Positions 3,845-56,829 of a stretch of DNA of 64,000 nt are shown here, one piece after another. Positions within the stretch are counted from its first letter, which is position 1; each line of letters opens with the position of its first letter. Below the pieces are notes generated by a model. The model did not search any database and was not told the DNA's origin. It saw nothing but the letters and a program-made list of their open reading frames with translations. Origin of the DNA: Ruminococcus flavefaciens MA2007 (GTDB lineage Bacteria; Bacillota; Clostridia; Oscillospirales; Ruminococcaceae); the NCBI RefSeq assembly GCF_000621845.1, contig NZ_JHXF01000010.1, forward strand, positions 124,001-188,000, in the 5' to 3' direction. The position numbers and the translations under genes were made by a program.

Positions 3845-3857
3845 ATCGAATACCTCC

Positions 3858-5107: not shown

Positions 5108-5627
5108 CGAGTATCGCCTCCTTGTTTTCATTGTATGCTTTAAGCGCAGTATCTACTGCGTGTTTCATTCCATTGGAAGAAAAAGTTGCGCCGCTTATAG
5201 CGTCAAAGCTGTCTGACGGCTGTGAAAGTCCATAGAATTGCTTTCTGAAATCAGCTTCATCACGAACCTTAGAGCCAAGACCTGGGGTTTCGCCAAGAGA
5301 AACGAACTCGATTCCTGAGATGATTCCCTGTGCGTCAAAGCCCACAAGTATGTTTATACCGTCCTTTGAGTAGCCGTCTGTGATAACTTGTATAACAGTT
5401 TTCTTATCAGGAGTTACAGCAATAGTCTGTATCTCATCATAGCCGCATTTTATGTTTACGACCTTACTTTCGGTCTTGCCGAAAAGAGCTTCAACACTGC
5501 TGCTGAACTTCTGAGACTTCTGCTCTGCTATGCTGTCTTTGGTAAGCTCATAAGCGAATACAAGAAGCAGAGAAGCTATCACGCATATTATAGTAAGTAC
5601 AACGGTAGGCTTTACCTTATCCTTCAT
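5100..5627 (-). CDS. rnfG: Rnf complex FMN-binding subunit G
   Basis: A 175-residue subunit with one N-terminal membrane helix and an extracytoplasmic FMN-binding domain. The flavinylation motif DAISGATFSS is visible near residues 144-153; the threonine of SGAT receives FMN by a phosphoester bond from an ApbE transferase, which is not encoded in this window. The ATG at 5627 follows AGGAGG, which lies inside the end of rnfD; the two genes overlap by 11 bases. Length and architecture are standard for clostridial RnfG. Confidence 0.94.
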   Translation of the reverse strand: MKDKVKPTVVLTIICVIASLLLVFAYELTKDSIAEQKSQKFSSSVEALFGKTESKVVNIKCGYDEIQTIAVTPDKKTVIQVITDGYSKDGINILVGFDAQGIISGIEFVSLGETPGLGSKVRDEADFRKQFYGLSQPSDSFDAISGATFSSNGMKHAVDTALKAYNENKEAILGG

Positions 5628-6558
5628 TCTTCTCAGCCTCCTTTGCACCAAGTACCTTAGTTCTTGTAAGCTGCTCGATATACGGAGTAAGAACGTTCAT
5701 AAGGAGTATTGAGAACGAAACGCCCTCGGGATAAGAGCCGAAACGTCTTATGATAAACGTTATGATACCGCAGCCGAGTCCGAATACTATCTTGCCCTTT
5801 GTTGTTATAGGAGTTGTTGCGTAGTCTGTAGCCATGAAAAATGCTCCGAGGAATACGCCTCCTGCGAGTATCTGATATACAGGATCAGAGCTGCTGATCC
5901 AGCTGAGAATGAACAGACTGCCGATGAATGAGAGTGGAGCTGCAAGGGAGATTATCTTTCTTGCTGCGAGATAAAGTCCGCCTATGAGAAGTGCAAGAGC
6001 GCAGGTCTCACCGAGACAGCCGCCTGTTTTTCCAAGAAACAGGTCGAGGTATGATACGGCATTGTCAGTTCCGGCGAGAGGGAGCGGTGTTGCGCTTGAT
6101 ATAGCGTCAAGGTCTGTGTGTGTGAATGGCTCTACCCATTTTGTCATTGCCGCAGGGAAACTTATCATAAGCACAATACGTGCGGTTATGGCAGGGTTTG
6201 CGAAGTTCTGTCCAAGTCCGCCGAAGAGCTGCTTAACAATGACTATTGCTACAAATGAGCCTATGACAGCCATCCAATACGGCAGAGTCGATGGCAGATT
6301 CATAGCAAGTATAAGACCTGTGACAACAGCTGAAAGGTCTCCGATAGTATTGCTGCGTTTCATCATTGTGCGGCATACGTATTCAAAAAATATGCAGCTT
6401 CCGATACAGACCGCAGTCAGCGGAATAACGCGTAAACCGAAGAAATATACCGCTGCTCCCCATGCAGGAAGAAGAGCGATTATAACATTCAGCATTATAT
6501 TTGTGGTTTTAGTGTAGTTCTCGTCATGTGGGGACGGAGATACAATAAGCTTATCCAT
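5617..6558 (-). CDS. rnfD: Rnf complex membrane subunit D
   Basis: A 313-residue NqrB/RnfD-family integral membrane protein with about nine or ten helices, which carries covalent FMN in studied homologues. The expected flavinylation site is present as DAISSATPLP near residue 155. The glycine before Ala in the usual SGAT is serine here, while the acceptor threonine is kept. Other family features are FGGLGQNFANPA and FMATDYATTPIT. Start ATG follows GGAGGCGG. Normal length; overlaps rnfG by 11 bases. Confidence 0.94.
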   Translation of the reverse strand: MDKLIVSPSPHDENYTKTTNIMLNVIIALLPAWGAAVYFFGLRVIPLTAVCIGSCIFFEYVCRTMMKRSNTIGDLSAVVTGLILAMNLPSTLPYWMAVIGSFVAIVIVKQLFGGLGQNFANPAITARIVLMISFPAAMTKWVEPFTHTDLDAISSATPLPLAGTDNAVSYLDLFLGKTGGCLGETCALALLIGGLYLAARKIISLAAPLSFIGSLFILSWISSSDPVYQILAGGVFLGAFFMATDYATTPITTKGKIVFGLGCGIITFIIRRFGSYPEGVSFSILLMNVLTPYIEQLTRTKVLGAKEAEKNEG

Positions 6559-6573
6559 TGGTCATCCGCCTCC

Positions 6574-7851
6574 TTACTTTCTTGGGATAAGTGCTTTTGC
6601 AAGCTGATTGGTCTCTGCAAGCTTTCTGTTTGCAGGACAGACATATGTACAGCTGCCGCAGTTCATGCAGAGCATGACTTTAAGCTGCTTGAGTTCTTCT
6701 ATATTACGTATTTTATAAGCTCTGTCGATATCTGCGGGCATAAGTCCGAGGGGACAAACTCTTACACATCGTCCGCAGCGTATACAGTTCGATGTTTTGC
6801 GCTCGTCATAATGATTGAAAGCAAGGAGTGCGTTTGATGTCTTTACTACAGGCATATTTATATCAGGAACGCTCATTCCCATCATAGGACCGCCTGCGAT
6901 GAGTTTTTTTATAGACGGGATATCGGCTTTGCAGAATTCAAGAAGTTCTTTGAAGGACGTACCGATAACAGTGCGGACATTTTTAGGCTCCCCTACTGCA
7001 TTTCCGTCAATTGTAAGGCGGCGTGTGACAAGGGGCATACCTGTCTGCATATAGCGATAGAGAAATGCAACGGTTGACACATTCATAACAATTACGCCTG
7101 CGTCGGCTGGCAGTGAGCCCTCGTTGACAATTCTTCCCGTTGAGTTATAGATGATTACCTTTTCAGCGCCCTGCGGATATGCAGAGGGCAGAGTTATGAT
7201 GTCTATAGTATCATCATTTTCAGCCATAGCCGTGAAATTCCTGATAGCTTCGGGCTTGTTTGCTTCGATAGCGAGCTTTGCTGACTTTATGCCCAGCTGA
7301 GACTTTACCATATTTATACCGTTGATAATATCCTGTGGATTTTCTATCATCTCTCGGTAATCGGCAGTTATGTAAGGCTCGCATTCAGCCGCATTAATTA
7401 TCAGTGTATCAATATCAGCTTTTGGATTCAGCTTTATATGTGTAGGGAATCCTGCGCCGCCAAGTCCGCAGGCGCCGCTCTGACGAACAGCTTTTACAAA
7501 ACTTTCCTTATCCGTAACAACAGGCGGCTTGACTTCATCTGATACAGTCTGAAGTCCGTCTGTTTCTATCTCTATCATTTTGCAGACTATTCCCATAGCG
7601 TTTCGATAATCGCTTATGGCAGTTACCTTTCCTGAAACGCCTGAGTGTACTGGAGCACTGAATGCAGCGTCGGTATCGCCTATCATCTGACCGACTGCAA
7701 CTGTGTCCCCTACCTTTACAAGAGGCTGACACGGAGCGCCCATAGTCATTGACATAGGTATAGTGACTTTGGAAGGAACAGGAAAATCTACAGTAGAGCT
7801 GTTTTCCGTATTTTTACGGTGTTTAAGCTTTATACCGTTAAGCTTTTTCAT
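6574..7851 (-). CDS. rnfC: Rnf complex NADH-side subunit C
   Basis: The peripheral subunit that exchanges electrons with NAD+. The 425-residue protein has the glycine-rich nucleotide/FMN site GACGLGGAGFPTHIKLNP near residues 125-142 and two C-terminal [4Fe-4S] motifs, CIRCGRCVRVCPLG and CMNCGSCTYVCPAN. ATG 7851 is chosen because AGGAG lies just upstream and the protein aligns with family N-termini there; an upstream extension would be unusual. It is the first gene of rnfCDGEAB, with a strong promoter about 95 bases upstream. Confidence 0.95.
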   Translation of the reverse strand: MKKLNGIKLKHRKNTENSSTVDFPVPSKVTIPMSMTMGAPCQPLVKVGDTVAVGQMIGDTDAAFSAPVHSGVSGKVTAISDYRNAMGIVCKMIEIETDGLQTVSDEVKPPVVTDKESFVKAVRQSGACGLGGAGFPTHIKLNPKADIDTLIINAAECEPYITADYREMIENPQDIINGINMVKSQLGIKSAKLAIEANKPEAIRNFTAMAENDDTIDIITLPSAYPQGAEKVIIYNSTGRIVNEGSLPADAGVIVMNVSTVAFLYRYMQTGMPLVTRRLTIDGNAVGEPKNVRTVIGTSFKELLEFCKADIPSIKKLIAGGPMMGMSVPDINMPVVKTSNALLAFNHYDERKTSNCIRCGRCVRVCPLGLMPADIDRAYKIRNIEELKQLKVMLCMNCGSCTYVCPANRKLAETNQLAKALIPRK

Positions 7852-7946
7852 ATATTTCTCCTTGATATAACGGCTTGATGTTAGCCATTTTGTTTTCGGT
7901 AATAATGTAGCATTGAAAGCAGGGCGAAATGAGCCCATACAATAAT

Positions 7947-40226: not shown

Positions 40227-41438
40227 TTACTTGAATAAGATTATCAGGAACTGGGATACCAGAACAATTGAGATAAGTGCGACAGGATATGTTGCTGCAT
40301 AGGCAGAAGCAACGTTCTCTGTACCTGCTGTACTGATAAGAGTTCCGAGGGCGGGTGTTGATGTCATACCGCCTGTAATAGAGCCAAGATTGTTGAGAAG
40401 ACTGAGCTTCAGAACATATTTAGCAAAGAGATAACCGATTATCATGGGAAGTATAGTCATTATCATGCCGTATACGAAGTATACTGCGTCAAAATACTGA
40501 ACGAACTTAGCTCCGCCCGATACTCCTGCACCGATAAGGAAGAACATGAGTCCGAGCTCGCGGAATACCTTGAGAGTTGAATCCTTTGGCGTTATGGAGT
40601 ACTTTCCGATTCGTCCGAAGTGTCCGAATATAAGGGATACAAGCAGACAGCCGCCAGTTGTTGACAGTGAGAAGTTGCCGAACTTGAATGAACCGATGAT
40701 TATTCCAAAAAAGGCAGCCATTGAAAACGGCATGATACCAAAGCTGTCCATTTCGATGAGCTTGAACATCTTCTTCTCTTTAGTATCCTTCTTAGCTGTC
40801 GGAGCAAGCTGCTCTCTTTCCTTAGCCATATCTGCCTTTGTGAGCTTAGGGATTATCTGAACGAATAAAACAACGCCGATAACTCCGAAAATATAAGCAA
40901 TAGCATAGCCTACTGAAACGATACTCTGTAAGTGGTCACTGCCGACTGCGTCCTTTGCAGCAGAGAAACCGGGGGTGCTTGTAAGTGCACCTGAAAGGAT
41001 ACCTGTCAGCATAGCAGTGAATTCCTCACTGTTAAGGTCAGTAAAGTTTCTGCCTACCATAATGCAGCCTGCACAGGCAAGTCCACCGCTTAAAATAATA
41101 ATTATTGCGAGAATAACATAGGATTTGAAGTTTTTCTTGAAGTTTCCGAAGAAATTAGGTCCTGCAATGAAACCAACTGCTGTAACAAAGAGTATAAGTC
41201 CGAGGTTGTCAACTATTTTCAGCGCATTTCCCACAAAGTCGGTATTTATTTCGGCTGAAAGCTCTTTATAGAAAACGCAGCCGTAAATAAGAGCGACAAT
41301 GAATACGCCCGCTGTACCGAGAGAAATGCCTTTTATTGTTATTCTGCCGAGTATATAGCCGAGAGCAGCTATGGCGATAACTGATATCATAAGAAAGGAA
41401 ACGCCGTGAATCGACAGAATTCCGTTAAAACAATCCAT
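40227..41438 (-). CDS. AspT-like (AAE family) carboxylate exchanger
   Basis: A 403-residue integral membrane protein with about ten to eleven helices in two halves, each with the AspT-type hairpin motif: GALTSTPGFSAAKDA (near 147) and GGMTSTPALGTLIS (near 362). The central TrkA-C/RCK domains of AspT are missing, giving a short version. AspT exchanges aspartate and alanine; relatives move succinate and other dicarboxylates. The place behind frdA suggests succinate or fumarate export, which is inference. A hairpin separates it from frdA, so it may be partly independent. Confidence 0.75.
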   Translation of the reverse strand: MDCFNGILSIHGVSFLMISVIAIAALGYILGRITIKGISLGTAGVFIVALIYGCVFYKELSAEINTDFVGNALKIVDNLGLILFVTAVGFIAGPNFFGNFKKNFKSYVILAIIIILSGGLACAGCIMVGRNFTDLNSEEFTAMLTGILSGALTSTPGFSAAKDAVGSDHLQSIVSVGYAIAYIFGVIGVVLFVQIIPKLTKADMAKEREQLAPTAKKDTKEKKMFKLIEMDSFGIMPFSMAAFFGIIIGSFKFGNFSLSTTGGCLLVSLIFGHFGRIGKYSITPKDSTLKVFRELGLMFFLIGAGVSGGAKFVQYFDAVYFVYGMIMTILPMIIGYLFAKYVLKLSLLNNLGSITGGMTSTPALGTLISTAGTENVASAYAATYPVALISIVLVSQFLIILFK

Positions 41439-41478
41439 TATTTATCACTTGACTTTCTTTTATAGTATACATACTTAC

Positions 41479-41500
41479 GGGACGTCTTTTACGACGTCCC
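41479..41500. terminator. hairpin after frdA
   Basis: Eight-base GGGACGTC/GACGTCCC stem with loop TTTTAC. The T run after it on minus is weak, so it may attenuate rather than end transcription into the exchanger gene. Confidence 0.55.
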
Positions 41501-41509
41501 ATAGTTTTA

Positions 41510-43111
41510 TTATTTCTTTCTTGCGTAACGAGGGAGAAGCATTGGTGAAGCTGTATTGCTTGCAGCGCCTGCTGCTTCGAGCTCCTTATTGAACTTCTCA
41601 ATATGAGCAAGGGTAAGCTTTGCAGGAGAAGCTGTCTCCTTAGCCTTTGCGGCTGCGTAGATACCTGCATTTCTGCCGAATACGATAACATCAAGAAGCG
41701 AATTGCCCATGAGTCTGTTTCTGCCGTGGATACCGCCTGCTACCTCGCCTGCTGCATAGAGGTTCTCAACTCCTGTAGCACAGTCATCGGATATCTCCAG
41801 ACCGCCGTTCTGATAGTGGAGAGTCGGATAAACGAGGATAGGCTCCTTGCGGATATCAATTCCGTACTTGCCGAACATTCTCATCATTGCAGGAATGCGC
41901 TTTTCAATAGTGCCCTCGCCGTTCTTGTACTCTATCATAGGTGTGTCGAGCCATACAGCCTTGCCGAGAGAAGTCTCGATACCCTTGTTGCGCTCTGTAC
42001 ACTCACGGATAATTGAAGCCGCTGTAACGTCACGAGTCTCAAGTGGGTGCATGAATACATCGCCGTCGATATTTACAAGCTTTGCACCGAGAGAACGAAC
42101 CTTCTCTGTAACCAGTGCACCGAATATCTGCTCGGGATAGCCTGTACCTGTTGGATGATACTGTAATGTATCAGCATAAAGGAGCTTTGCGCCTACACGG
42201 TAGCCGAGGATAAGTCCGTCAGCTGTAGCACCGTAATGGTTTGAAGTCGGGAAGCCCTGATAGTGAAGTCTGCCTGCGCCGCCTGTAGCGATAATTACAG
42301 TCTTTGCCTTGGCAACGAGGAGCTCCTTGGTCTCCATATTCATGAGAACAGCGCCTGCAGCTCTGCCGTTTTCATCAAGTATTATCTCAATAGCAGCTGT
42401 AAAGTCGATAACCGGGATACCGCGATTGATGACCTCATCGCGGAGAGTACGCATTATCTCAGCGCCTGAGTAGTCCTTTGCAGCGTGCATTCTCTTACGT
42501 GATGTACCGCCGCCGTGAGTTGTTACCATAGTGCCGTCGGGCTCTTTGTCGAACTCAACGCCAAGCTTATTGAGCCACTGGATAGCTTCTGGAGCCTTTG
42601 TAACCAGCTTCTTTACAAGCTCGGGCTTTGCTGCGAAATGTCCGCCGCCGAAAGCGTCGAGGAAGTGTATAGCAGGAGAATCATTAGGCTTATCAGCAGC
42701 CTGAATACCGCCCTCAGCCATCATTGTATTAGCGTCGCCGATACGAAGCTTTGTAACTATCATAGCCTTAACGCCTGCTTCATCAGCTTCGATAGCAGCA
42801 GAAGCACCTGCGCCGCCGCCGCCGATGATAAGAACGTCAGTTTCATAATCAGGAGCAGTAAGGTCTACGTCAGAAGCGCTGATACGGCTCTTGCCCTGTA
42901 AAAGCTCAGCAAGCTGTGTAGGAACTTTGTCGCCCTTGTTTACACCGGCGGAGAGAACTGTGAACTCCTCCTGCTTGTAATCGGGGTGGAAATGAGCGAG
43001 AAGCTCGTCCTTTTCCTCGGCTGTCATACGTCTGGGTTCAAGAGCAGCATTTTCGGCTCTCTTAGCTGCAACTACCTTTGCAAGCTCGTTAAGTTTATCT
43101 ATCTTGTACAT
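41510..43111 (-). CDS. frdA: soluble fumarate reductase flavoprotein subunit
   Basis: FAD subunit of the succinate dehydrogenase/fumarate reductase family (533 residues). FAD motif VLIIGGGGAGASAAIEA lies at about 92-108. Substrate residues of FrdA are conserved: His in QYHPTGTG, Arg in TEKVRSLG, His in PTLHYQNGGLE and Arg in GRNRLMGNSLLD. The histidine that binds FAD covalently in membrane FrdA/SdhA is replaced (DANTMMAEGG), as in thiol:fumarate reductase and aspartate oxidase, so FAD is non-covalent. There is an extra 90-residue N-terminus. It lies 14 bases after frdB with no anchor gene, so the enzyme is cytosolic. Confidence 0.9.
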   Translation of the reverse strand: MYKIDKLNELAKVVAAKRAENAALEPRRMTAEEKDELLAHFHPDYKQEEFTVLSAGVNKGDKVPTQLAELLQGKSRISASDVDLTAPDYETDVLIIGGGGAGASAAIEADEAGVKAMIVTKLRIGDANTMMAEGGIQAADKPNDSPAIHFLDAFGGGHFAAKPELVKKLVTKAPEAIQWLNKLGVEFDKEPDGTMVTTHGGGTSRKRMHAAKDYSGAEIMRTLRDEVINRGIPVIDFTAAIEIILDENGRAAGAVLMNMETKELLVAKAKTVIIATGGAGRLHYQGFPTSNHYGATADGLILGYRVGAKLLYADTLQYHPTGTGYPEQIFGALVTEKVRSLGAKLVNIDGDVFMHPLETRDVTAASIIRECTERNKGIETSLGKAVWLDTPMIEYKNGEGTIEKRIPAMMRMFGKYGIDIRKEPILVYPTLHYQNGGLEISDDCATGVENLYAAGEVAGGIHGRNRLMGNSLLDVIVFGRNAGIYAAAKAKETASPAKLTLAHIEKFNKELEAAGAASNTASPMLLPRYARKK

Positions 43112-43125
43112 ACTCTCTCCCCTCC

Positions 43126-43809
43126 TTACTTCTCGATCTCGCGGTGGTTGTACATATCTTTTATTTCTTCGATATTGTCAACTGCCTTAGTCATGAGTTC
43201 TTCGATCTCCTTATCGAAGATACCCTCGTTTACTTCCTTTACTCTGTCGGAGAGATGTCCGCACTCAGGCTCTATATACTTGCCGTTGAGACGTCTTGCA
43301 AGCATAGCTACCTGTGGGTGGGAAATACCTGCTGGACATCGTGACGAACATACTCCGCACATTACACAGTCAAAGCTCTCCTCTGCACACTTGTCGTACT
43401 CGCCTCTCTGAGCATATGCGATATACTGCATAACGTTGAGTTCCTGGGTACAAGCTTTTGTACAGGCATTACAGCCGATACAGCTGTATATCTCGGGATA
43501 AAGCTGCATCATTATCTGCTGAGTGGGCTTTATCTCCTCGATGTTGTAAATCCTCTTTTCAAGCGGGAAGAAAGGCAGAGTTGCTACGTACATTCCCTCC
43601 TGAATCTCTGTCTGACAGGCAAGACAGCCGTGAAGCTCTATCTCGCCCTTTATTCTGTATATGGTAGCACAGGCTCCGCAGAAGCCGTTGCGGCAGCCGC
43701 AGCCTCTTACAAGGTCGTAGCCTGCATATTCCATAGCTGTCATTATTGTAAGACCTGCGGGCACTTCGTACTTCTTGCCGAACAGGTAAACATTCAACAT
43801 ATTATCCAT
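43126..43809 (-). CDS. frdB: fumarate reductase iron-sulfur subunit
   Basis: A 227-residue electron-transfer subunit. The [2Fe-2S] motif RGCGCRNGFCGACATIY with GCLAC is at residues 35-65; two ferredoxin motifs follow, CIGCNACTKACTQ and CVMCGVCSSRCPAG. Two four-cysteine cubane motifs differ from the [4Fe-4S]/[3Fe-4S] pair of quinone-linked SdhB/FrdB. It resembles the N-terminal part of TfrB (thiol:fumarate reductase) but lacks TfrB's C-terminal CCG domain, whose role may be taken by the separate HdrB in this operon. Confidence 0.88.
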   Translation of the reverse strand: MDNMLNVYLFGKKYEVPAGLTIMTAMEYAGYDLVRGCGCRNGFCGACATIYRIKGEIELHGCLACQTEIQEGMYVATLPFFPLEKRIYNIEEIKPTQQIMMQLYPEIYSCIGCNACTKACTQELNVMQYIAYAQRGEYDKCAEESFDCVMCGVCSSRCPAGISHPQVAMLARRLNGKYIEPECGHLSDRVKEVNEGIFDKEIEELMTKAVDNIEEIKDMYNHREIEK

Positions 43810-43824
43810 GCGAGTATCTCCTTA

Positions 43825-44652
43825 TTAATATTCGTCGGGCAGTTCGCCGAGCTGGTCAAAGCGGAAAACAGGACCGTCCTTGCAGACATACTTGTTGCCG
43901 ATGTTGCAGCGTCCGCATTTGCCTACTCCGCACTTCATGCGAAGCTCCATAGTAGTATAGACCTGAGTTTCCTTGAAACCAAGTTCTTTAAGTCCTGCAA
44001 GAGTGAACTTTATCATTATGGGAGGTCCGCAGATAAGAACAGTCTTGTTTATGGAAGGATCAAGCTCCTTTACATAGTTAGGAACGAAGCCTACATGACC
44101 GTCCCAGCCCTCCTGCGGATTATCAATGGTAAGGTTTACTTCAATACCAGTGTCATTCATCCACTCGTCAATTATCTCTTTATAATCAACAAGGTCATCT
44201 TTAGAACGTGAACCGTATATTATCTGTACGTCGCCGTAGTTAGCGCGGTTGTCGCGCACATAGTTGATGACCGAGCGGAGCGGAGCAAGACCGATACCGC
44301 CTGCAATAAAGAGGAGGTCCTTGCCTTTCAGCTCTGTCTCAACAGGGAAAGCATTGCCGTAAGGTCCGCGGATAGTTATCTGCTGACCTACGTCCATAGC
44401 ATGAAGCCATGTTGTAAGACAGCCGCATTTCTTTATGCTGAACTCCATGAATTCCTTGTTTGTAGGAGAAGATGTTATAGAGAACATAGCCTCTCCGACA
44501 CCGGGAATCGAGAGCATTGCGCACTGTCCGGGCATATGATCGAAAACCTTGCCACCCTCGGGAGAAACAACTCGGAATGTCTTTACATCGGGAGTATCCT
44601 GTCTTATATCGGTAACTACACCAATGTAAGGTATCAATGTATCATTATTCAT
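43825..44652 (-). CDS. flxA: FlxA-type FAD/NAD(P)H oxidoreductase subunit
   Basis: A 275-residue ferredoxin-NADP+ reductase-fold protein related to AsrB and PyrK. FAD part: MPGQCAMLSIPG and SITSSPT; nucleotide part: LLFIAGGIGLAPLRSVINYV near residue 111; C-terminal [2Fe-2S] binding KCGVGKCGRCNIGNKYVC. In Desulfovibrio FlxABCD-HdrABC this subunit takes electrons from NADH. Start 44652 is the ATG overlapping the flxB stop (TGATG), with GGAGGT eight bases upstream; a longer reading to 44718 runs inside flxB. Confidence 0.88.
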   Translation of the reverse strand: MNNDTLIPYIGVVTDIRQDTPDVKTFRVVSPEGGKVFDHMPGQCAMLSIPGVGEAMFSITSSPTNKEFMEFSIKKCGCLTTWLHAMDVGQQITIRGPYGNAFPVETELKGKDLLFIAGGIGLAPLRSVINYVRDNRANYGDVQIIYGSRSKDDLVDYKEIIDEWMNDTGIEVNLTIDNPQEGWDGHVGFVPNYVKELDPSINKTVLICGPPIMIKFTLAGLKELGFKETQVYTTMELRMKCGVGKCGRCNIGNKYVCKDGPVFRFDQLGELPDEY

Positions 44653-45671
44653 CACTTTACCTCCAATGCTTTCATTACCTTGACGATATTCATGGAAATA
44701 GGACATTTTGCAAGGCATCTTCCACAGCCAACACAGCCGAATTCTCCGTTGTTGTTTGCCGGGAAGTACACAAGCTTATGCATAAATCTCTGGCGGAAGC
44801 GCTCAAGCTGAGTAAGTCTCGGGTTTCCGTGAGCCATCTTTGTAAAATCGGAGTACATACATGAATCCCAGCAGCGGAAACGCTTTATGCCATGACCGGT
44901 GTTGAAATCCTTGATGTCATAGCACTGACAGGTAGGGCATACGAATGTGCAGGTACCGCAGCCGAGGCAGCTCTCGGAGAGTTCTCCCCACTTATCGGAA
45001 TTGAAGTACTCATTGAGCTTGTCGCCGCCGAAATTATCGGTAGTAAGGTTTGCGAGAGGAAGTTTTTTGAGTATCTCTCTTGTCTTAGCACGAACAGCTT
45101 CAAGCTTTGCTGTGTCGCCTTCTTCAAGAAGAGAAGATATCGAGTCGATGAACTTCTGTCCTTTTTCGTTATGGGCCTCGATGAATAAGCTCTCGCCGTC
45201 GCTGTAGCAGGCAGCGTCGCCCTCTGGGGCAGCTGCGTCAATGCCAAATGTACCGCAGAAGCAGGTCTCGGCAGGACGTGCACAAGCCATAGTAACTACT
45301 GTGCCGTGGTCACGGCGGTTCTTATAGTAGCTGTCAACAGGCTCGGCAAGGAACACCTTATCGAGTATTGTAAAGCTTCTTGCGTCGCAGGCACGAACTC
45401 CGAATATTACGAAATCCTCGGATTCCTCACGTACATCAATGACTTCGATGTTTTTGCCTTCCATTTTGAAATCGACAAGATTTTCTGTCTGTGGGAAGAA
45501 GAAATCCTTTGCGCTGCGCAGAGTATTGAGAGCACTGCTGAGCTTCATGCCGCTTTCGTACTTTTTGTACTCAGCCGCACCGTCCTCACGGTCAACAGGG
45601 ATATAGAGAGTCTGTGAAGCTGAGATAGCTTCAAAAAGCTTGTCAAGCTTATCAAGTGATATTTTCAGCAT
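44652..45671 (-). CDS. flxB: Flx-type (AsrA-like) iron-sulfur subunit, copy 1
   Basis: A 339-residue cytosolic protein of the AsrA/4Fe-4S dicluster family. An N-terminal domain with FGVRACDARSFTILD and MACARPAETCFCGTFG is followed by two ferredoxin motifs, CLGCGTCTFVCPTCQC near residue 240 and CVGCGRCLAKCPIS near 320. It would relay electrons between FlxA and FlxD/HdrA. It is paralogous to the next gene. Which of the two corresponds to FlxB and which to FlxC is tentative. Touches its neighbours by one base on each side, indicating coupled translation. Confidence 0.82.
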   Translation of the reverse strand: MLKISLDKLDKLFEAISASQTLYIPVDREDGAAEYKKYESGMKLSSALNTLRSAKDFFFPQTENLVDFKMEGKNIEVIDVREESEDFVIFGVRACDARSFTILDKVFLAEPVDSYYKNRRDHGTVVTMACARPAETCFCGTFGIDAAAPEGDAACYSDGESLFIEAHNEKGQKFIDSISSLLEEGDTAKLEAVRAKTREILKKLPLANLTTDNFGGDKLNEYFNSDKWGELSESCLGCGTCTFVCPTCQCYDIKDFNTGHGIKRFRCWDSCMYSDFTKMAHGNPRLTQLERFRQRFMHKLVYFPANNNGEFGCVGCGRCLAKCPISMNIVKVMKALEVK

Positions 45672-46642
45672 TATTCAACTCCCCTTTCGTGTACTACGGA
45701 CGCTTCGCAGTCATCCTGCTTGTAATCGTTGAGAGGAGCGCGTGATGTGGTATCCTCGCCTGCCTGATATTCGCCGTAAAGGGAGTTTATATCCTTTATG
45801 AACTTGCGATTCAGAAGGTGAAGCGGAATATGCTGTGGGCATACTCTTGAACACTCGCCGCAGTCTGTACATCTTCCTGCTACGTGGAATGCACGGATTA
45901 TATGGAACATATTCTCCTCAAAGCTGTCGGCAGGAGCCTTGTTCTCTACGCCTGAGTTCGGGTTATCGAATACGCACTTCTCGCAAGTGCAGGCCGGACA
46001 GACGTTTCTGCACGCATTGCAGCGAATGCACTTTGAAAGCTCTCCGCGCCAGAAGTCGTAGCGTTCCTGAGCAGTCATATTTTCAAGCTTCTCGACCATA
46101 TCGAAGCGATTTGAGTCAAGGACTTCACCCTCGTCACCTATGAGCTCGTCATAGACAACGTGCTTTTTGCTCTTGCAGGTCGCGCACTTATCAAGGATAG
46201 CCTCATAGAAAGGCATTGTCTCCTCGCCGTAAACGGTATCTATTTTCAGAGTGTAATTCTCGTTCTTTACGCCGAGTATGCCTGTAATGCCCTTAGCCTT
46301 TATCTTTTCTGCGTCGAGCTTAGGACCTCCGGGGATACCAACGATGTAAACGTTCTCGCGTACAACTCTGTGCTCCTTAGTGAGCTGGTTGAAGCTGTAT
46401 GTATCGCAGGGCTTCAGAAAAGCAAGTATCCTGCCTTCTTTTTTACTCTCCTTAACGAGGTACTTGGATACATTTGCAGCTGTAAAATCATCAAAAACGA
46501 ACTCTTTTTCGAGTTCTTCGGCAGTTTCAAAAACAGCAGGGGTGATATCATAAGCAAATTCTCCCCTTTTCCAGCCGATAACGCGGTCAACAGTACCGTC
46601 AGCCAGAAGCTGTTTTGCCTTATTAATCATTGCTTCCTGCAT
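45671..46642 (-). CDS. flxC: Flx-type (AsrA-like) iron-sulfur subunit, copy 2
   Basis: A 323-residue paralogue of the neighbouring subunit: FLKPCDTYSFNQLTKE near residue 75, DKCATCKSK, CIRCNACRNVCPACTCEKC near 207 and CTDCGECSRVCPQHIPL near 258. The start ATG 46642 has GGAGG seven bases upstream and overlaps flxD by 16 bases. It probably forms an electron wire with the other Flx subunits. The B/C naming is tentative. Confidence 0.82.
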   Translation of the reverse strand: MQEAMINKAKQLLADGTVDRVIGWKRGEFAYDITPAVFETAEELEKEFVFDDFTAANVSKYLVKESKKEGRILAFLKPCDTYSFNQLTKEHRVVRENVYIVGIPGGPKLDAEKIKAKGITGILGVKNENYTLKIDTVYGEETMPFYEAILDKCATCKSKKHVVYDELIGDEGEVLDSNRFDMVEKLENMTAQERYDFWRGELSKCIRCNACRNVCPACTCEKCVFDNPNSGVENKAPADSFEENMFHIIRAFHVAGRCTDCGECSRVCPQHIPLHLLNRKFIKDINSLYGEYQAGEDTTSRAPLNDYKQDDCEASVVHERGVE

Positions 46643-47070
46643 CTCAGGTCCTCCAATCTGCGGTTTGGTCCCAGCTTTTTGACAGCCTCAGTGAATTCGT
46701 TCATGGTAGCAGCGAACTTAGCGCCTTCTGCTGCCGATACCCATTCAACTCTTGTTCTGTCGCGTTCGATCCCAAGGAAATCAAGCATACTGAACAGAAG
46801 TGTCATTCTTCTTCTGGTGAAGTAGTTGCCTGATGTGTAGTGACAGTCTCCCGGGTGGCAGCCGCAGAGGATAACTCCGTCAGCGCCGCGCTGGAAGGCT
46901 CTGAGAATGAACATAGGGTTTACTCTGCATGAGCAGGGCACTCTGATTATCTTAACGTTTGTAGGATAATTAAGTCTGTTAGTGCCTGAAAGATCGGCTC
47001 CTGCGTATGAACACCAGTTACAGCAGAACGCAACGATCAGCGGCTGAAAATCTTTATTATCATTTACTTG
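46627..47070 (-). CDS. flxD: FlxD/MvhD-type [2Fe-2S] subunit
   Basis: A 147-residue protein of the MvhD family, which docks electron-donating modules onto HdrA. Cysteine motifs CCNWCSYAGAD, RVPCSCRV and GVILCGCHPGDCHYTSGN are all present. Start ATG 47070 overlaps the hdrA stop by seven bases and has GGAGGT nine bases upstream; a longer reading to 47172 lies inside hdrA. Its position directly behind hdrA is typical of Hdr complexes. Confidence 0.9.
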   Translation of the reverse strand, partial: QVNDNKDFQPLIVAFCCNWCSYAGADLSGTNRLNYPTNVKIIRVPCSCRVNPMFILRAFQRGADGVILCGCHPGDCHYTSGNYFTRRRMTLLFSMLDFLGIERDRTRVEWVSAAEGAKFAATMNEFTEAVKKLGPNRRLEDLRCRKQ

Positions 47071-49055
47071 CATATTGCGTCCACCTCCGACATGATCTGG
47101 CTGTTTGAGAAGCCGTTTAAGTCCATAGCTCCCGACGGACAAGCAACTGTACAAGCGCCGCAGCCCTGACATACAGCAGGGTTAACGCTTGCAACTCTGC
47201 GTATTGCAGTGGTTCTGTCGGGCATTCTGAATTCCTTGTCAACATATGTGATAGCTCCGTATGGACATACCTTTTCGCATGACGAGCAACCGTTGCACAT
47301 GAGCTCGTCAGAATGAGCGACACATGGATTGCAGGTTATGCTGTTCTTAACAAGAAGTCCGATAGCTTTTGCGGCTGCCGCACTTGCCTGTGCAACAGTT
47401 TCGGGGATATCCTTTGGTCCCTGACAGGCACCAGAGAGGAATATACCTGCGGTAGCGCTTTCTACAGGACGGAGCTTCGGGTGTGCTTCTGTGAAGAAGT
47501 CGTTAGTGTCCATCTGAGTTGTGAGCATTGTAGCCAGCGGACGAGCTGTCTTGTCAGGCTCGATAGCCGCTGCAAGAACTACCATATCTGCGTCGATATG
47601 GAGCTGTTCGTTTGCCAGAAGGTCAGAAGCCTGTACATCTATCTTTCCGTCTGAGCGAGGTGTTACCTTTCCTACCATGCCCTTGATGTAGTGAACATTG
47701 TACTGCTCAACTGCACGGCGGTAGAACTCATCAAAGTTCTTACCGGGGGTACGGACGTCGATATAGAACACGTAAACCTCGGTATCAGGATATTTTTCAC
47801 GGATAAGCATTGCGTGCTTGGCAGTATACATACAGCATATCTTTGAGCAGTATGGCTTGCCCTTGCTGTCGTCACATCTTGAACCCACGCACTGTACGAA
47901 TACGATCTTGTGAGGGTGAGTCTTGTCGGAAGGACGAAGCAGTGTGCCGCCGTTAGGACCTGCGGCGTTCATAAGACGCTCAAGCTCCAGCGATGTAACT
48001 ACGTCGGGACACTGGTTATATGCAAACTCATCGTACTTGTCAAGATTTATTGGATTGAAGCCTGTAGCAACTACGATAGCACCGTACTGCTGCTCGATTA
48101 TTTTGTCCTCCTGCTTGTAGTCGATAGCTCCTACAGAGCATACTGACGAGCAGATACCGCACTTGCCCTTCTGAAGCATCATGCAGTAGTTAGGATCAAT
48201 AGTTGCCACTTTTGGTACAGCCTGAGCAAAAGGGATGTATATAGCTGTACGGTTATCAAGTCCCATATTGAACTCGTTGGGGACTTTCTTCATTGGACAT
48301 TTTTCTGTACAAAGACCGCAGCCTGTACATTTTGTCTCGTCAACAAAACGAGCTTTTTTCTTTATCTTGACAGTAAAGTTACCTACAAAGCCCTTTACAT
48401 CGGCTACCTCGCTGAATGAGTGTATGGTAATACGCTCATTCTGTGAAGCCTCTACCATTTTAGGTGTAAGGATACAAGCTGCGCAGTCAAGTGTCGGGAA
48501 GGTCTTGTCAATCTGAGCCATTTTACCGCCGATAGTAGGATTCTTTTCAACGATATCAACATCGAAGCCTGCTTCTGCGATGTCAAGAGCAGTCTGTATA
48601 CCTGCGATACCTCCGCCTATAACGAGAGCACGCTTTACAACAGGACTCTCTCCTGCTGTCAGAGGCGAATTGAGATGAACCTTGGCAACTGCTGCCTTTC
48701 CGAGGATAATTGCCTTTTCTGTTGCAGAAGCGATATCCTTGTGTATCCATGAGCACTGCTCGCGGATATTTGCTATCTCAACGAGATATGGATTCAGACC
48801 TGCTGAAGCAGCAGCCTTTCTGAATGTATTCTCATGCATTCTTGGTGAACATGAGCATACAACCACACCTGTGAGTTTATGTTCTTTAATAGCGTTCTTT
48901 ACGAGATTCTGTCCCGATTCGGAACACATATACTGATAGTCCTGAGAGATAACAACTCCAGGCTCATGCCCCAGCGCTTCAGCTACGGCTTTGACGTCTA
49001 CTGTTGCAGCAATATTAGTACCGCAATGACAGACAAAAACGCCTATTCTTTTCAT
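47064..49055 (-). CDS. hdrA: heterodisulfide-reductase-type subunit A (flavin bifurcation subunit)
   Basis: A 663-residue FAD/iron-sulfur protein, about the length of methanogen HdrA. It has an N-terminal domain (GVFVCHCGTNI; VVVCSCSPRMHENTF), a thioredoxin-reductase-like FAD domain (ALVIGGGIAGIQTALDIAEA, FPTLDCAACILTPKMVE), an inserted ferredoxin (CTGCGLCTEKCPMKK, CGICSSVCSVGAI) and a C-terminal ferredoxin (CNGCSSCEKVCPYGAI, CQGCGACTVACPSGAM). HdrA FAD is where electron pairs are split in methanogens. Here it would join FlxABCD to HdrBC or FrdAB. Confidence 0.93.
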   Translation of the reverse strand: MKRIGVFVCHCGTNIAATVDVKAVAEALGHEPGVVISQDYQYMCSESGQNLVKNAIKEHKLTGVVVCSCSPRMHENTFRKAAASAGLNPYLVEIANIREQCSWIHKDIASATEKAIILGKAAVAKVHLNSPLTAGESPVVKRALVIGGGIAGIQTALDIAEAGFDVDIVEKNPTIGGKMAQIDKTFPTLDCAACILTPKMVEASQNERITIHSFSEVADVKGFVGNFTVKIKKKARFVDETKCTGCGLCTEKCPMKKVPNEFNMGLDNRTAIYIPFAQAVPKVATIDPNYCMMLQKGKCGICSSVCSVGAIDYKQEDKIIEQQYGAIVVATGFNPINLDKYDEFAYNQCPDVVTSLELERLMNAAGPNGGTLLRPSDKTHPHKIVFVQCVGSRCDDSKGKPYCSKICCMYTAKHAMLIREKYPDTEVYVFYIDVRTPGKNFDEFYRRAVEQYNVHYIKGMVGKVTPRSDGKIDVQASDLLANEQLHIDADMVVLAAAIEPDKTARPLATMLTTQMDTNDFFTEAHPKLRPVESATAGIFLSGACQGPKDIPETVAQASAAAAKAIGLLVKNSITCNPCVAHSDELMCNGCSSCEKVCPYGAITYVDKEFRMPDRTTAIRRVASVNPAVCQGCGACTVACPSGAMDLNGFSNSQIMSEVDAICK

Positions 49056-49069
49056 GGTGCTGTCTCTCC

Positions 49070-49453
49070 TTACTTTATGTATTTTCTGAATGCTGTTACG
49101 ATAGCCTGCTGCGGCAGATCATCATCGAGCATTTCGGGTATCTGATTCGGATTCATATGATTATTTCCCTGCTGGCGTACAGCTGCAAGACGTACAGCCT
49201 CAACCACCTTTGCAGGTTCAACGTTACGGGGACATCTGTCTACACAGGCAAAGCAGGTAAGACATTTGTATATGGACTTTGATTTCATCAGAGTCTCGAT
49301 ATCACCGCGTTCTACCATATATACGAACTGATGTGGATGATACTCCATTTCGTCGTATGAAGGGCAGGTTCCCGAACATTTGCCGCAGCGCATACATTTC
49401 AGCACGTTTACTCCGCTTGAGCGCAGGACCTGTTCTTTTAAGTTCTTATCCAT
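49070..49453 (-). CDS. hdrC: heterodisulfide-reductase-type subunit C
   Basis: A 127-residue ferredoxin-like protein with two [4Fe-4S] motifs, CMRCGKCSGTCPSY at residue 20 and CLTCFACVDRCPRN near 64, the complete ligand set of HdrC. It transfers electrons from HdrA to HdrB. It overlaps hdrB by eight bases and has GGAGG before its start. Confidence 0.92.
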   Translation of the reverse strand: MDKNLKEQVLRSSGVNVLKCMRCGKCSGTCPSYDEMEYHPHQFVYMVERGDIETLMKSKSIYKCLTCFACVDRCPRNVEPAKVVEAVRLAAVRQQGNNHMNPNQIPEMLDDDLPQQAIVTAFRKYIK

Positions 49454-50243
49454 TTTGAACCTCCTTCAAGCCGAGAGCCTCAGCGAGCAGATCTGTGAAG
49501 TAATACACGGGGAGCTCTGCATCTGAGTTCTTTTTTAAGTTGTAAAGACACAGTGGACAGGCTGTTATTATCATATCAGCTCCCTGATCCTTAGCCGAAC
49601 GTACAACAGCACTGCTTCTCTTAGAAGCCTGAGCCTTGTCCTCAAGAGTTATATAACCGCCGCAGCATTCGTTTCTCTGGGCGTAGATGACAGGAGTACC
49701 GCCGATCGCTTTTATAAAGTCTTCCATTATTGTCGGATTTTCAGGATCGTCCATTGCAAGTGCTTTTGAAGGACGAAGCAGCAGACAGCCGTAATATGCA
49801 GCGATCTTCTTGCCTTTAAGAGGATTAACCACCTTCTGTGCAAGGTTGTCAAATCCTACTACATCACGGAGCATTTCAAGATAATGATAAACAGTTGTTT
49901 CTCCGTTATATGGCTCCGGAAGTTTGAGATAGTTATTTACCTTTGCTGCCATTTCCTCATCATTGGAAATATCGTAATTGGTTTGCTTTATAACGTTATG
50001 ACAGGCTGAACAGACTGTGATGAGCGGTCTGTTGTTCTCTTTTGCGGAATTAAGTATTCTTACTGCTGAGAGCTTGGTAGCGATTTCGTCCTTTGCGGTG
50101 GTATATGCACCGCCGCAGCACTGCCAGTCAGCAGGTTCTTCAAGATTTATACCGAGACATTCGGCACTCTTCCTTGCATAAGTATCAAGGTCCTTAGCTT
50201 TTGTTCTAAGAGTGCACCCCGGGTAGTAAGTAAAGGTTTCCAT
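49446..50243 (-). CDS. hdrB: heterodisulfide-reductase-type subunit B with two CCG domains
   Basis: A 265-residue protein with two CCG domains that in HdrB bind the two non-cubane [4Fe-4S] clusters. First set: YYPGC at residue 10, DWQCCGG near 42, VCSAC near 79. Second: YGC near 152, NECCGG near 193, ACPLC near 230. All ligands are in place. In methanogens this is the disulfide-reducing subunit; here the acceptor may be an unknown disulfide or it may pass electrons to FrdAB. Confidence 0.92.
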   Translation of the reverse strand: METFTYYPGCTLRTKAKDLDTYARKSAECLGINLEEPADWQCCGGAYTTAKDEIATKLSAVRILNSAKENNRPLITVCSACHNVIKQTNYDISNDEEMAAKVNNYLKLPEPYNGETTVYHYLEMLRDVVGFDNLAQKVVNPLKGKKIAAYYGCLLLRPSKALAMDDPENPTIMEDFIKAIGGTPVIYAQRNECCGGYITLEDKAQASKRSSAVVRSAKDQGADMIITACPLCLYNLKKNSDAELPVYYFTDLLAEALGLKEVQNG

Positions 50244-50267
50244 ATATGTGATTCCTTTCTTGTATGA

Positions 50268-51644
50268 TCAGACCATTTCCTCTGGGTGGAATACTTCGTC
50301 GAAACGCTCGGCAGTAAGGAAACCGAGTTCAACGCAGGCTTCTTTAAGGGAAATATTGTCTTTAAATGCTTTTTTTGCTGTTTTTGCAGCATTTTCGTAG
50401 CCGATATAAGGGTTAAGAGCGGTTACCAGCATAAGAGAATTATGCAGATTATGATGCATTTTCTCCTTATTGGCTTTTATTCCTACAGCACAGTTCTTGT
50501 TGAATGATGTTATTGATTCGGCAAGAAGTCTTGCAGATTGCAGGAAATTATACGCGCATACAGGCATAAATACGTTGAGCTCAAAGTTACCCTGAGAAGC
50601 AGCCATGCCTACTGTTACGTCATTGCCCATTACCTGAACTGCGACCATAGTTACCTGCTCGCACTGTGTTGGATTGACCTTGCCGGGCATTATGGACGAG
50701 CCGGGCTCATTTTCGGGAATAAATATCTCGCCGAGACCGTCACGAGGTCCTGAAGCAAGCCATCTTACATCGTTGGCTATCTTCATCATATCGGCTGCAA
50801 GAGCTTTAAGTGCGCCGTGTGCGAATACTATTTCATCTTTTGAAGTAAGAGAGTGGAATTTATTGGGAGATGATATGAATTTTTTACCTGTAAGCTCGCT
50901 TATCTTTTCAGCTGCCTTGTCAGCAAAGCCCTTTGGCGCATTAAGTCCTGTTCCAACAGCTGTGCCGCCTACCGCGAGTTCTTTAAGCTCTTCGCAAGCA
51001 GAAAGCAGCATTTTTTTATCCTTTTCAAGCGAAGCTCTCCAGCCGCTGATCTCCTGTGAAAATTTGATAGGAGTTGCGTCCTGTAAGTGTGTGCGTCCGC
51101 TCTTAACGACGTCCTCGTTTTCAGCTTCGAGGCGCTTAAAGGTAGCTATAAGAGTGTCGATAGCAGGAACGACCTTGTCTTCAACAGCAAGAACAGCCGC
51201 AATATGCATTGCAGTCGGAAACGTGTCATTTGATGACTGGCTCATGTTGATATCATCGTTTGGGTGGAGCAGCTTTGAACCTGCAATTTCATTTCCTCTG
51301 TTGGCAATGACCTCGTTGGTGTTCATATTTGACTGAGTTCCGCTGCCTGTCTGCCATACAACAAGCGGAAAATGCTCATTAAGAGCGCCGCTTATTACTT
51401 CATCGCAAGCCTGACTGATAGCCGCAAGCTTTTCGTCTGTCATTTTTTCAGGCTTGAGCTCGTGATTTGCAAGAGCAGCAGCTTTTTTCAGTATGCCAAG
51501 TGCATGAGTTATCTCACGCGGCATTGTTTCGATACCTACGCCGATAAGAAAGTTCTCATGGCTTCGCTCGGTCTGAGCTCCCCAGTACTTATCGGCAGGT
51601 ACCTTTACTTCGCCCATAGAATCATGTTCAACGCGATAATCCAT
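50268..51644 (-). CDS. fumC: class II fumarase
   Basis: Interconverts malate and fumarate. The 458-residue protein has the superfamily signature GSSIMPGKVNPTQ near residue 317, TSTQSNMNTNEV-like GSGTQSNMNTNEVIANR near 106, and SSNDTFPTAMHI near 139. Start 51644 follows GGGAGAGGAT; a longer reading to 51692 has no good ribosome site. Placed first in the fum-hdr-flx-frd cluster, it supplies fumarate to the reductase. Unusual for a strict anaerobe, it is the oxygen-stable class II type rather than class I. Confidence 0.95.
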   Translation of the reverse strand: MDYRVEHDSMGEVKVPADKYWGAQTERSHENFLIGVGIETMPREITHALGILKKAAALANHELKPEKMTDEKLAAISQACDEVISGALNEHFPLVVWQTGSGTQSNMNTNEVIANRGNEIAGSKLLHPNDDINMSQSSNDTFPTAMHIAAVLAVEDKVVPAIDTLIATFKRLEAENEDVVKSGRTHLQDATPIKFSQEISGWRASLEKDKKMLLSACEELKELAVGGTAVGTGLNAPKGFADKAAEKISELTGKKFISSPNKFHSLTSKDEIVFAHGALKALAADMMKIANDVRWLASGPRDGLGEIFIPENEPGSSIMPGKVNPTQCEQVTMVAVQVMGNDVTVGMAASQGNFELNVFMPVCAYNFLQSARLLAESITSFNKNCAVGIKANKEKMHHNLHNSLMLVTALNPYIGYENAAKTAKKAFKDNISLKEACVELGFLTAERFDEVFHPEEMV

Positions 51645-51723
51645 TTTAATATCCTCTCCCAGAAAATTATTGGATCCTGTGTCGAAAGACATCAGAATAC
51701 AGTTTAAACTATCACATATAATA

Positions 51724-51752
51724 AGTATAACAGCATATTATGAATAATTCAA
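51724..51752 (-). promoter_or_regulatory. promoter of the fumC-hdr-flx-frd cluster
   Basis: TTGAAT and TATACT, 17 bases apart on minus, about 80 bases before fumC. Confidence 0.6.
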
Positions 51753-51763
51753 ATTCAAGTTAA

Positions 51764-51777
51764 GAATAGCGCTATTC
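51764..51777. promoter_or_regulatory. 14-bp perfect palindrome upstream of the fumC promoter
   Basis: GAATAGCGCTATTC lies 11 bases upstream of the predicted -35. It may be an operator for an unidentified regulator; its sequence is not a Rex box. Confidence 0.4.
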
Positions 51778-51782
51778 AGATA

Positions 51783-51800
51783 TTGATATATAATTAACAA
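51783..51800 (-). promoter_or_regulatory. candidate Rex box upstream of fumC
   Basis: On minus TTGTTAATTATATATCAA matches 12 of the 14 fixed positions of the Rex consensus TTGTTAAnnnnTTAACAA. It lies about 30 bases upstream of the fumC -35 and faces the rex gene. The rest of the 51801-52127 gap is A+T-rich; apart from a short TTGCAT/ATGCAA repeat near 51871-51884 I see nothing I can support there. Confidence 0.55.
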
Positions 51801-52158: not shown

Positions 52159-52806
52159 TTATTTGTTTTCGCCTGATTCAAGATTGTTCAATCCATATGA
52201 AAGTGTTGTGAGACTGTCTCCAAGATGAACGTTCTCGACAGCGATACCCTTATGAGTTACTTTCAGGTCATAGTGGGTGAAATTCCAGAACGCCTTGATT
52301 CCACATTCAATAAGAGTGCTCGCAAGCTTTTCTGCCGCATTCATAGGAACGCAGAGAATAGCAGCTACAGGCTTGTTTTCAGCACAGAACGTACTGAGTT
52401 CGTCAGTGCTTCTGACTTTAAGTTCGCCTATCTCTTTACCTATGATATCGGGATTTACATCAAAAGCGCCTATAAGATCAAAGCCTTTGTTGTGAAAATC
52501 AATATGGGAAGCAATTGCTTTTCCGAGATTTCCCGCACCGAGAAGAATCATAGGAGTCTGCTTGTCAAGTCCGAGTATCTTGCCTATTTCAAGACGAAGA
52601 TCGCTGACATTATAGCCGTAGCCCTGCTGACCGAATTCACCGAAGCAGTTGAAATCCTGTCTTATCTGTGATGCTGTCAGTCCCATTTTTTCAGAAAGCT
52701 CTCTTGATGATATCCTTACATAGCCGTTATGTTCAAGCTCGCCGAGAAAACGATAATAACGAGGGAGTCTTCTTATTACAGAGTTTGATATTGAGTCCTT
52801 TGACAT
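52159..52806 (-). CDS. rex: redox-sensing repressor Rex
   Basis: A 215-residue repressor that releases DNA when NADH/NAD+ is high. It has an N-terminal winged helix (RRLPRYYRFLGELEHNGYVR, MGLTASQIRQDFNCFGEFG) and a Rossmann NADH domain with LLGAGNLGKAIASH near residue 90, then GAFDVNPDIIGKEIG. Full length. It follows icd by 20 bases and is the last gene of acn-traX-icd-rex. Two Rex-like boxes flank its neighbours, so it probably controls both units and itself. Confidence 0.95.
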   Translation of the reverse strand: MSKDSISNSVIRRLPRYYRFLGELEHNGYVRISSRELSEKMGLTASQIRQDFNCFGEFGQQGYGYNVSDLRLEIGKILGLDKQTPMILLGAGNLGKAIASHIDFHNKGFDLIGAFDVNPDIIGKEIGELKVRSTDELSTFCAENKPVAAILCVPMNAAEKLASTLIECGIKAFWNFTHYDLKVTHKGIAVENVHLGDSLTTLSYGLNNLESGENK

Positions 52807-56789: not shown

Positions 56790-56818
56790 ATTTTACAACA
56801 TTTCACGCAGTTTGTCAA
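56790..56818 (-). promoter_or_regulatory. acn-icd-rex promoter
   Basis: TTGACA and TAAAAT on minus, 17 bases apart, about 40 bases before acn. Confidence 0.75.
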
Positions 56819-56829
56819 GAATTAAACAA
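56812..56829 (-). promoter_or_regulatory. candidate Rex box over the acn -35
   Basis: TTGTTTAATTCTTGACAA on minus matches 12 of 14 fixed positions of the Rex consensus and contains the -35 element, an ideal place for repression. Confidence 0.65.

Follow-up and report, generated by a model that had tools for sequence, protein, structure and literature searches.

The stretch of DNA considered here, referred to as the window, comprises 64,000 nucleotides of Ruminococcus flavefaciens MA2007 (contig NZ_JHXF01000010.1), and it contains a minus-strand run of ten intact open reading frames (ORFs) in the order fumC, hdrB, hdrC, hdrA, flxD, flxC, flxB, flxA, frdB, and frdA, which very probably encode one functional unit leading from NADH (reduced nicotinamide adenine dinucleotide) to fumarate. 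The spacings between successive genes, from fumC to frdA, are 24, -8, 14, -10, -16, -1, -1, 15, and 14 bases (negative values being overlaps), when flxD and flxA are taken to begin at internal ATG codons (47073 and 44652, respectively). An earlier reading of the letters alone (the sequence-only reading) had described ten consecutive minus-strand genes, in this order and tightly packed, which the intact ORFs and gaps of -16 to +24 bases bear out. The span that it gave, 40227..51800, covers all ten genes, while its start belongs to an eleventh gene, which it did not list and which encodes a carrier, and its end lies upstream of fumC, where a Rex-like palindrome (51783-51800) ends. Its remark that the ten genes include no membrane subunit also holds, the sole membrane protein of the run being the AspT-type carrier. 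Pfam and NCBIfam matches back nine of the gene names, and fumC was named from its sequence, without a family search. The ten genes are as follows:

50268..51692, minus strand: fumC, class II fumarase (ORF of 474 amino acids; named from sequence)
49446..50243, minus strand: hdrB, with two CCG domains (PF02754 in two stretches)
49070..49453, minus strand: hdrC, with two [4Fe-4S] motifs (Pfam/NCBIfam)
47064..49055, minus strand: hdrA, flavin adenine dinucleotide (FAD) and iron-sulfur hub with a bifurcating site predicted by homology (phmmer against 5odc_A)
46627..47073, minus strand: flxD, MvhD/FlpD-like connector (PF02662; start moved to an internal ATG)
45671..46642, minus strand: flxC, iron-sulfur electron entry subunit (its dicluster part resembles FdhB chains)
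44652..45671, minus strand: flxB, AsrA/sulfhydrogenase-beta-like iron-sulfur subunit (PF17179)
43825..44652, minus strand: flxA, FAD/NAD oxidoreductase with a DHODB-type [2Fe-2S] cluster (PF00970, PF00175, PF10418)
43126..43809, minus strand: frdB, with one [2Fe-2S] and two [4Fe-4S] motifs and no CCG domain (Pfam)
41510..43111, minus strand: frdA, soluble fumarate reductase flavoprotein (PF00890)

Conserved residues of the reductase and its predicted electron-carrying partners

FrdA aligns over residues 89-493 with the Escherichia coli fumarate reductase 1kf6, and its residues H319, T335, E336, R360, H432, and R466 are the counterparts of the catalytic residues of that structure, which we take to serve in fumarate binding, fumarate reduction, and proton delivery; all six are invariant in 16 of 16 aligned rows. 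By keeping the fumarate-binding and proton-delivery residues, FrdA is predicted to belong to the FrdA/SdhA superfamily, while its matches in Pfam do not include PF02910. The claim that FrdA lacks the histidine for covalent FAD was correct, in that Asn128 (asparagine in 16 of 16 rows) replaces the histidine of E. coli FrdA that presumably forms the covalent FAD link. FrdA further carries an N-terminal extension of ∼88 amino acids, in which several positions are invariant. Its best NCBIfam profile is TfrA, at 347.4 bits, which is under the 718-bit cut-off. An identity as L-aspartate oxidase was rejected, because the TfrA profile gives FrdA a higher score than NadB does; a separate FAD_binding_2 protein of the genome (L204) resembles NadB by eye.

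FrdB contains one [2Fe-2S] motif and two CxxCxxCxxxC motifs, whose twelve cysteines are kept in all 78 rows compared, and a Pfam search gave no PF02754 (CCG) match in this chain. The TfrB profile NF004898 matches FrdB (19-92), HdrC (132-221), and HdrB (415-487) at successive positions, and, as read from these profile positions, the single TfrB chain of thiol:fumarate reductase corresponds to three chains here. We counted this union of the FrdB, HdrC, and HdrB parts in one TfrB chain in favor of an HdrB-FrdB contact, and we infer a physical complex in which electrons would pass directly from HdrB to FrdB. The methanogen TfrAB is soluble, as is the enzyme predicted here, and TfrB differs from FrdB in having a fused CCG part; with no CCG in FrdB and a TfrA score below the cut-off, an identity as TfrAB proper was rejected.

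The cluster ligands of HdrA, HdrB, and HdrC, which the sequence-only reading had reported as kept, are indeed conserved among the rows passing a length filter, with (i) 27 cysteines of HdrA invariant in 31 of 31 rows, (ii) the ten cysteines of both CCG domains of HdrB invariant in 29 of 29 rows, and (iii) eight cysteines of HdrC invariant in 30 of 30 rows. All seven subunits of an HdrABC-FlxABCD set are thus present, together with the conserved HdrA, HdrB, and HdrC cluster cysteines. HdrA matches the solved HdrA 5odc_A with a phmmer E of 9.4e-211, FlxD matches solved MvhD-type chains (best E 3.2e-51), and FlxB matches the sulfhydrogenase beta-like chain 9nez_B (E 4.4e-44). Moreover, the dicluster part of FlxC matches the FdhB chains of 7bkb, 8rvu, and 9t1s, which are structures that also contain Hdr chains, and by homology electrons would enter HdrA from FlxC/FlxD. 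The FlpD family has one match in the window's genome.

The ten CCG cysteines of HdrB would also suit a thiol route, in which Flx-Hdr reduces a disulfide and the resulting thiol then reduces fumarate at FrdAB, the CCG site of methanogens being one that handles a disulfide. FrdB, however, has no CCG thiol site, HdrB and FrdB co-occur in the class, and DsrC (PF04358) has no match in the window's genome, other thiol carriers not having been searched for; we regard this route as quite unlikely. For want of PF04358 in the genome, a DsrC-linked route was rejected.

The best NCBIfam scores of HdrB are to SdhE (150 bits, against a cut-off of 500) and to HdrB (135 bits), both under cut-off. SdhE belongs to SdhABE, the 8-methylmenaquinol:fumarate reductase, and unlike that system, HdrB here is part of an Hdr set. 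In the window's genome (98.05% complete), neither of the two menaquinone-synthesis families searched was matched, namely UbiA (which all 14 control genomes match) and MqnA/D (which 4 of the 14 match). The quinol:fumarate reductase FrdABC(D) is marked by a membrane anchor subunit, a quinone made by the organism itself, and a covalent FAD histidine, whereas here the ten genes include no anchor, the two menaquinone families gave no match, and FrdA has Asn128; a membrane quinol:fumarate reductase was rejected on the missing anchor and menaquinone families. The earlier proposal of a quinone-free NADH-to-fumarate unit is supported by this result, by the invariant residues, and by the linkage of FrdB and HdrB described below.

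Linkage, gene order, and exchanged partners

The relatives were examined in a class sample of 291 genomes, of which 237 are near-complete. FrdB is full-length in 40 of the 291 (E 8.6e-77 or better), the next match being partial, at E 1.7e-10; as most of the 211 matches at E 0.001 are partial, ferredoxin-domain matches, only the 40 full-length ones were used. HdrB was found in 41 and FlxD in 45 of the 291 genomes, and FrdB and HdrB occur together in 39, the three mismatched genomes (G071, G032, and G224) being 75, 62, and 77% complete. Among the near-complete genomes, 32 carry both FrdB and HdrB, 205 carry neither, and none is discordant (a hand tally, on whose counts a Fisher test was run).

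The 39 class loci comprise 29 with all nine core genes in one order, nine that are in order and end at a contig or stretch end, and one that is rearranged (G269); flxA adjoins frdB in 38 of them. The rearranged locus is still whole, reading class I fumarase (fumAB)-frdBA-hdrBCA-flxDCBA. A second set of 80 named loci, which are the best 80 of at least 544 confirmed relatives and are biased to near kin, has flxA adjoining frdB in 80 of 80, with nine genes in order in 60 and incomplete ends in the other 20. As far as contigs reach, one core-gene order is therefore found in all but one of 119 loci, which are not all independent, as the two sets share some contigs (for example, L112/L033, L115/L034, and L119/L032). 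The co-occurrence in this order that the sequence-only reading had proposed to look for thus exists for the nine core genes, apart from one rearranged locus, and a lone local oddity or chance arrangement was rejected, because the order is kept across many genomes. The operon is real and widely conserved, and this conservation supports one functional unit. Within the same family, FrdB matches of E 1e-30 or better occur in 17 of 148 genomes; even close to the window, then, the operon has a patchy distribution. Among named genomes, the highest FrdB identities belong to R. flavefaciens ATCC 19208 (98%), strain FD-1 (91%), and other R. flavefaciens and Ruminococcus (87-97%), and the ATCC 19208 locus has icd, rex, and fumC neighbors that are 96, 91, and 93% identical, respectively.

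In 13 of 39 class loci and 58 of 80 named loci, the operon begins with a fumC gene 77-93% identical to that of the window, whereas a class I fumarase, unrelated to fumC, takes the fumarase slot in 11 of 39 class loci (L036, L037, L047, L048, L051, L054, L058, L060, L068, L069, and L070). The remaining 15, several of them incomplete at contig or stretch ends, showed neither kind of fumarase. Because two non-homologous enzymes for the same reaction are swapped here, the exchange strongly indicates a role of the operon in handling fumarate.

Six class genomes contain FlxD without FrdB, one of them (G032) having an incomplete copy of this operon. Four others (G037, G065, G070, and G155), which have no frdBA, carry genes read as MetF, HdrC, and FlxDCBA together with one for a long HdrA-like protein; MetV joins them in three of the four, and none has an HdrB match. 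G022 has a glycolate-oxidase-like set. At loci L196, L197, L198, and L199, a Flx-HdrA hub with no HdrB match stands beside genes read as MetF and, in three, also MetV. Judging from the FlxD-without-FrdB contexts, different acceptor modules seem to be attached to the Flx-HdrA hub, with HdrB accompanying FrdBA here. The names MetF and MetV, like malic enzyme, cytochrome, and HydABC and the donor labels below, were read from sequence, without family searches.

Across 398 genomes of the phylum, 39 FrdBA carriers, the window included, were identified by a profile search. Twenty-one of the other 38 have hdr genes adjoining frdBA, and 17 have no hdr in the stretch taken. Five of the 38 have hdrBCA and flxD beside frdBA, all nine genes being shown in one (L252), while L227, L229, L231, and L232 bear the label 'FlxHdr' on the basis of stretches that stop short of flxA. 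Eleven have several HdrA-like parts, FlxD, a FlxC-like part, and no FlxA or FlxB match, with hdrCB in nine (L247 and L253 being incomplete). A further five (L234, L237, L239, L240, and L245) show hdrC-hdrB-frdB-frdA with no hdrA, frdA lying beyond the stretch in L237, and these minimal cases point to HdrB/HdrC as the likely immediate donor where Hdr is present. Some of the 17 hdr-less relatives lie beside genes resembling malic enzyme or cytochromes. In L233 and L255, FrdBA is near genes resembling FMN (flavin mononucleotide)-binding membrane proteins, L255 also having NapC/NrfH-like cytochromes, which may represent a membrane-linked version. On a FrdA tree of 76 rows (quick method, midpoint root; L067, too short, and L237, with no frdA, left out), the four donor contexts can be explained by 7 changes, where shuffles require 29.1. 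Donors are thus inherited within clades, yet they do change.

The sequence-only reading had held that FrdAB using another donor and standing apart from Hdr/Flx would speak against it, and this applies in part, as 17 of the 38 distant relatives have no hdr gene within the stretch taken. Such loci, some with cytochrome-like or malic-enzyme-like neighbors, lend some weight to the view that the ten genes share only a promoter, with FrdAB using another donor and Flx-Hdr doing a separate redox job. We consider this very unlikely, given (i) the complete concordance among the 237 near-complete class genomes, (ii) a linkage kept through one rearrangement, and (iii) the four class genomes without frdBA, whose Flx-HdrA hub stands beside a MetF-like gene with no HdrB match.

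Neighboring genes and the predicted route of electrons

Four further features of the window bear on the operon:

40227..41438, minus strand: AspT-family carrier, probable succinate/dicarboxylate exchanger (PF06826)
51783..51800, no strand assigned: Rex-operator-like palindrome upstream of fumC (motif match; candidate)
52159..52806, minus strand: rex, NADH/NAD+ sensing repressor gene (ORF; named from sequence, without a family search)
3053..7938, minus strand: rnfCDGEAB (RnfD by Pfam; the other five of six consecutive ORFs named from sequence)

The carrier gene (Asp-Al_Ex, AspT/YidE/YbjL) starts 71 bases after frdA and is followed by a terminator-like inverted repeat at 40221-40197. In 24 of 39 class loci and 61 of 80 named loci, the first gene that tblastn recognizes beyond frdA is of the AspT type, and the AspT carrier family includes succinate exporters (PMC9527358). 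An eight-pair hairpin at 41479-41500, between frdA and the AspT-type gene, could tune carrier expression. Rfam gave no match at the gathering threshold in 37000-64000.

Upstream of the operon are genes read, from sequence, as rex, isocitrate dehydrogenase, and aconitase. The window holds four Rex-like sites, against 5.2 expected, and the site at 51783-51800 is not above chance alone. Among 69 fumC upstream regions, the window's included, 16 have a Rex-like site with at most two mismatches, 15 of these being from Ruminococcus and the other from L104, which is the only case outside that genus; 18 of 69, mostly from Ruminococcus, reach 5% or better against shuffles. Further, in 25 of 80 named loci, a rex gene 70-92% identical to that of the window immediately precedes fumC. 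Rex possibly controls the operon through the 51783-51800 palindrome, which we regard as a candidate. A further Rex-like palindrome, with two mismatches, lies at 56812-56829, a short distance upstream of the presumed aconitase gene (54813-56750).

The rnfCDGEAB genes, ∼32 kb from the operon in the same window, probably encode the consumer of reduced ferredoxin. Two proteins of the window's genome exceed the RnfD-type cut-off, and two contain an [FeFe]-hydrogenase domain, one of them in a HydABC-like three-gene set.

On balance, we read the operon as encoding the enzymes for the final two reactions of succinate fermentation in a bacterium that lacks quinones. FumC would make fumarate, and FlxA would oxidize NADH and send electrons through FlxB, FlxC, and FlxD to HdrA, whose flavin would bifurcate them, with one electron going to ferredoxin through the HdrA ferredoxin domains and the other passing from HdrC to HdrB, FrdB, and FrdA, thereby reducing fumarate. 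The net reaction would be 2 NADH + fumarate + oxidized ferredoxin -> 2 NAD+ + succinate + reduced ferredoxin, after which reduced ferredoxin would yield an ion gradient via Rnf or be used by hydrogenase, and the AspT-type carrier would export succinate. At standard conditions, with ferredoxin at -500 to -400 mV, we computed -33 to -53 kJ/mol for the net reaction from redox potentials that we take to apply, so the energetics allow a bifurcating reaction.

The same large potential drop needs no coupling, and all relays are present for a non-bifurcating NADH:fumarate reductase as well, in which HdrABC would carry every electron on its way from NADH to fumarate and HdrA would be a mere relay. We judge this rather improbable, since the 27 HdrA cysteines are kept in every row and HdrA closely resembles solved HdrA from complexes that reduce ferredoxin, while a nine-subunit chain would be costly without coupling and Rnf is present to use the ferredoxin. 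Bifurcation at HdrA is, in our estimate, moderately probable.

Several observations weigh against this mechanism or its importance. Homology to HdrA does not prove bifurcation. With 17 of 38 FrdBA pairs having no adjoining hdr, FrdBA is probably not always Hdr-dependent, and FrdB is probably able to accept electrons from other sources. In addition, fumarate reductase genes were not seen highly transcribed in two ruminococci in sheep (PMC8092306; data not shown there), and that paper names acetate, formate, and hydrogen, not succinate, as the products of the ruminococci, which does not favor a large flux in the sheep setting.

Known systems and significance for succinate formation

The sequence-only reading knew of no described complex with this combination, a claim that fails, because the same operon and the same hypothesis have been published for Pseudoclostridium thermosuccinogenes (PMC7282089, 2020). 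The 'succinate operon' of that organism comprises a fumarase, Flx-Hdr (RS03360-30, which we read as seven genes), a fumarate reductase (RS03325-20, read as two), and then a hypothetical protein suggested as a succinate transporter (PMC7282089). Its expression rose ∼4-fold under CO2 limitation, not significantly for every subunit, and the paper cites a 2019 preprint (10.20944/preprints201912.0288.v1) proposing bifurcating, ferredoxin-coupled fumarate reduction. Compared by description, this other organism has the same gene order and the same proposal, with no difference in kind that we know of, and the window's run, having fumarase, hdr-flx, and frd in one run and in the published order, is a 'succinate operon' in that sense. 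A literature search for the phrase 'bifurcating fumarate reductase' found no paper, and the excerpts considered contained no biochemical test of the bifurcation proposal. Nor did the excerpts of the Ruminococcus fumarate reductase literature (PMC6776011, PMC8092306, PMC7174568, PMC12773636) give an account of the operon in R. flavefaciens. New here are the setting in R. flavefaciens, the strictness of the linkage, the exchange of one fumarase for another, and the evidence for FrdBA as a module with a changing donor.

In tubeworm (vent) symbionts, Flx-Hdr has been proposed to feed a TfrAB-type thiol:fumarate reductase by direct electron transfer (PMC6315080, PMC11636981). Their Flx-Hdr genes are intermixed with those of a soluble fumarate reductase, as here, whereas korABCD interspersed in the clusters, a reductive tricarboxylic acid cycle context, and the TfrAB type are unlike the present case. 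The expression of symbiont tfrAB differed from that of the rest of its cluster (PMC11636981).

All seven Flx and Hdr subunits encoded in the window are common to FlxABCD-HdrABC of Desulfovibrio, a system that PMC7282089 also cites. That system was reportedly described by Ramos in 2015, with a disulfide as the proposed acceptor and a role in ethanol metabolism, and its description is said not to include frdBA in the operon.

As a wider reading, to which we give an even chance, FrdBA would act as a plug-in acceptor, docking onto HdrB in a general Flx-HdrA bifurcation hub, which in other Clostridia appears to take methylene-tetrahydrofolate reductase. The result would be a soluble, nine-subunit, quinone-free fumarate respiration, through which succinate formation by major fiber-degrading rumen bacteria would conserve energy via ferredoxin and Rnf. 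The cultured rumen bacterium R. flavefaciens degrades cellulose and is reported to make succinate, and less of it beside a methanogen (PMC7174568), and the formation of succinate or propionate from cellulose by this species is cited in the same source.

In summary, bifurcation is a plausible mechanism for this operon and the best available. If it is true, each succinate would yield reduced ferredoxin for Rnf or for hydrogen release, which would explain fumarate reduction in a bacterium in which no menaquinone route was found and would change the adenosine triphosphate and hydrogen accounting of succinate and propionate formation in the rumen and gut.

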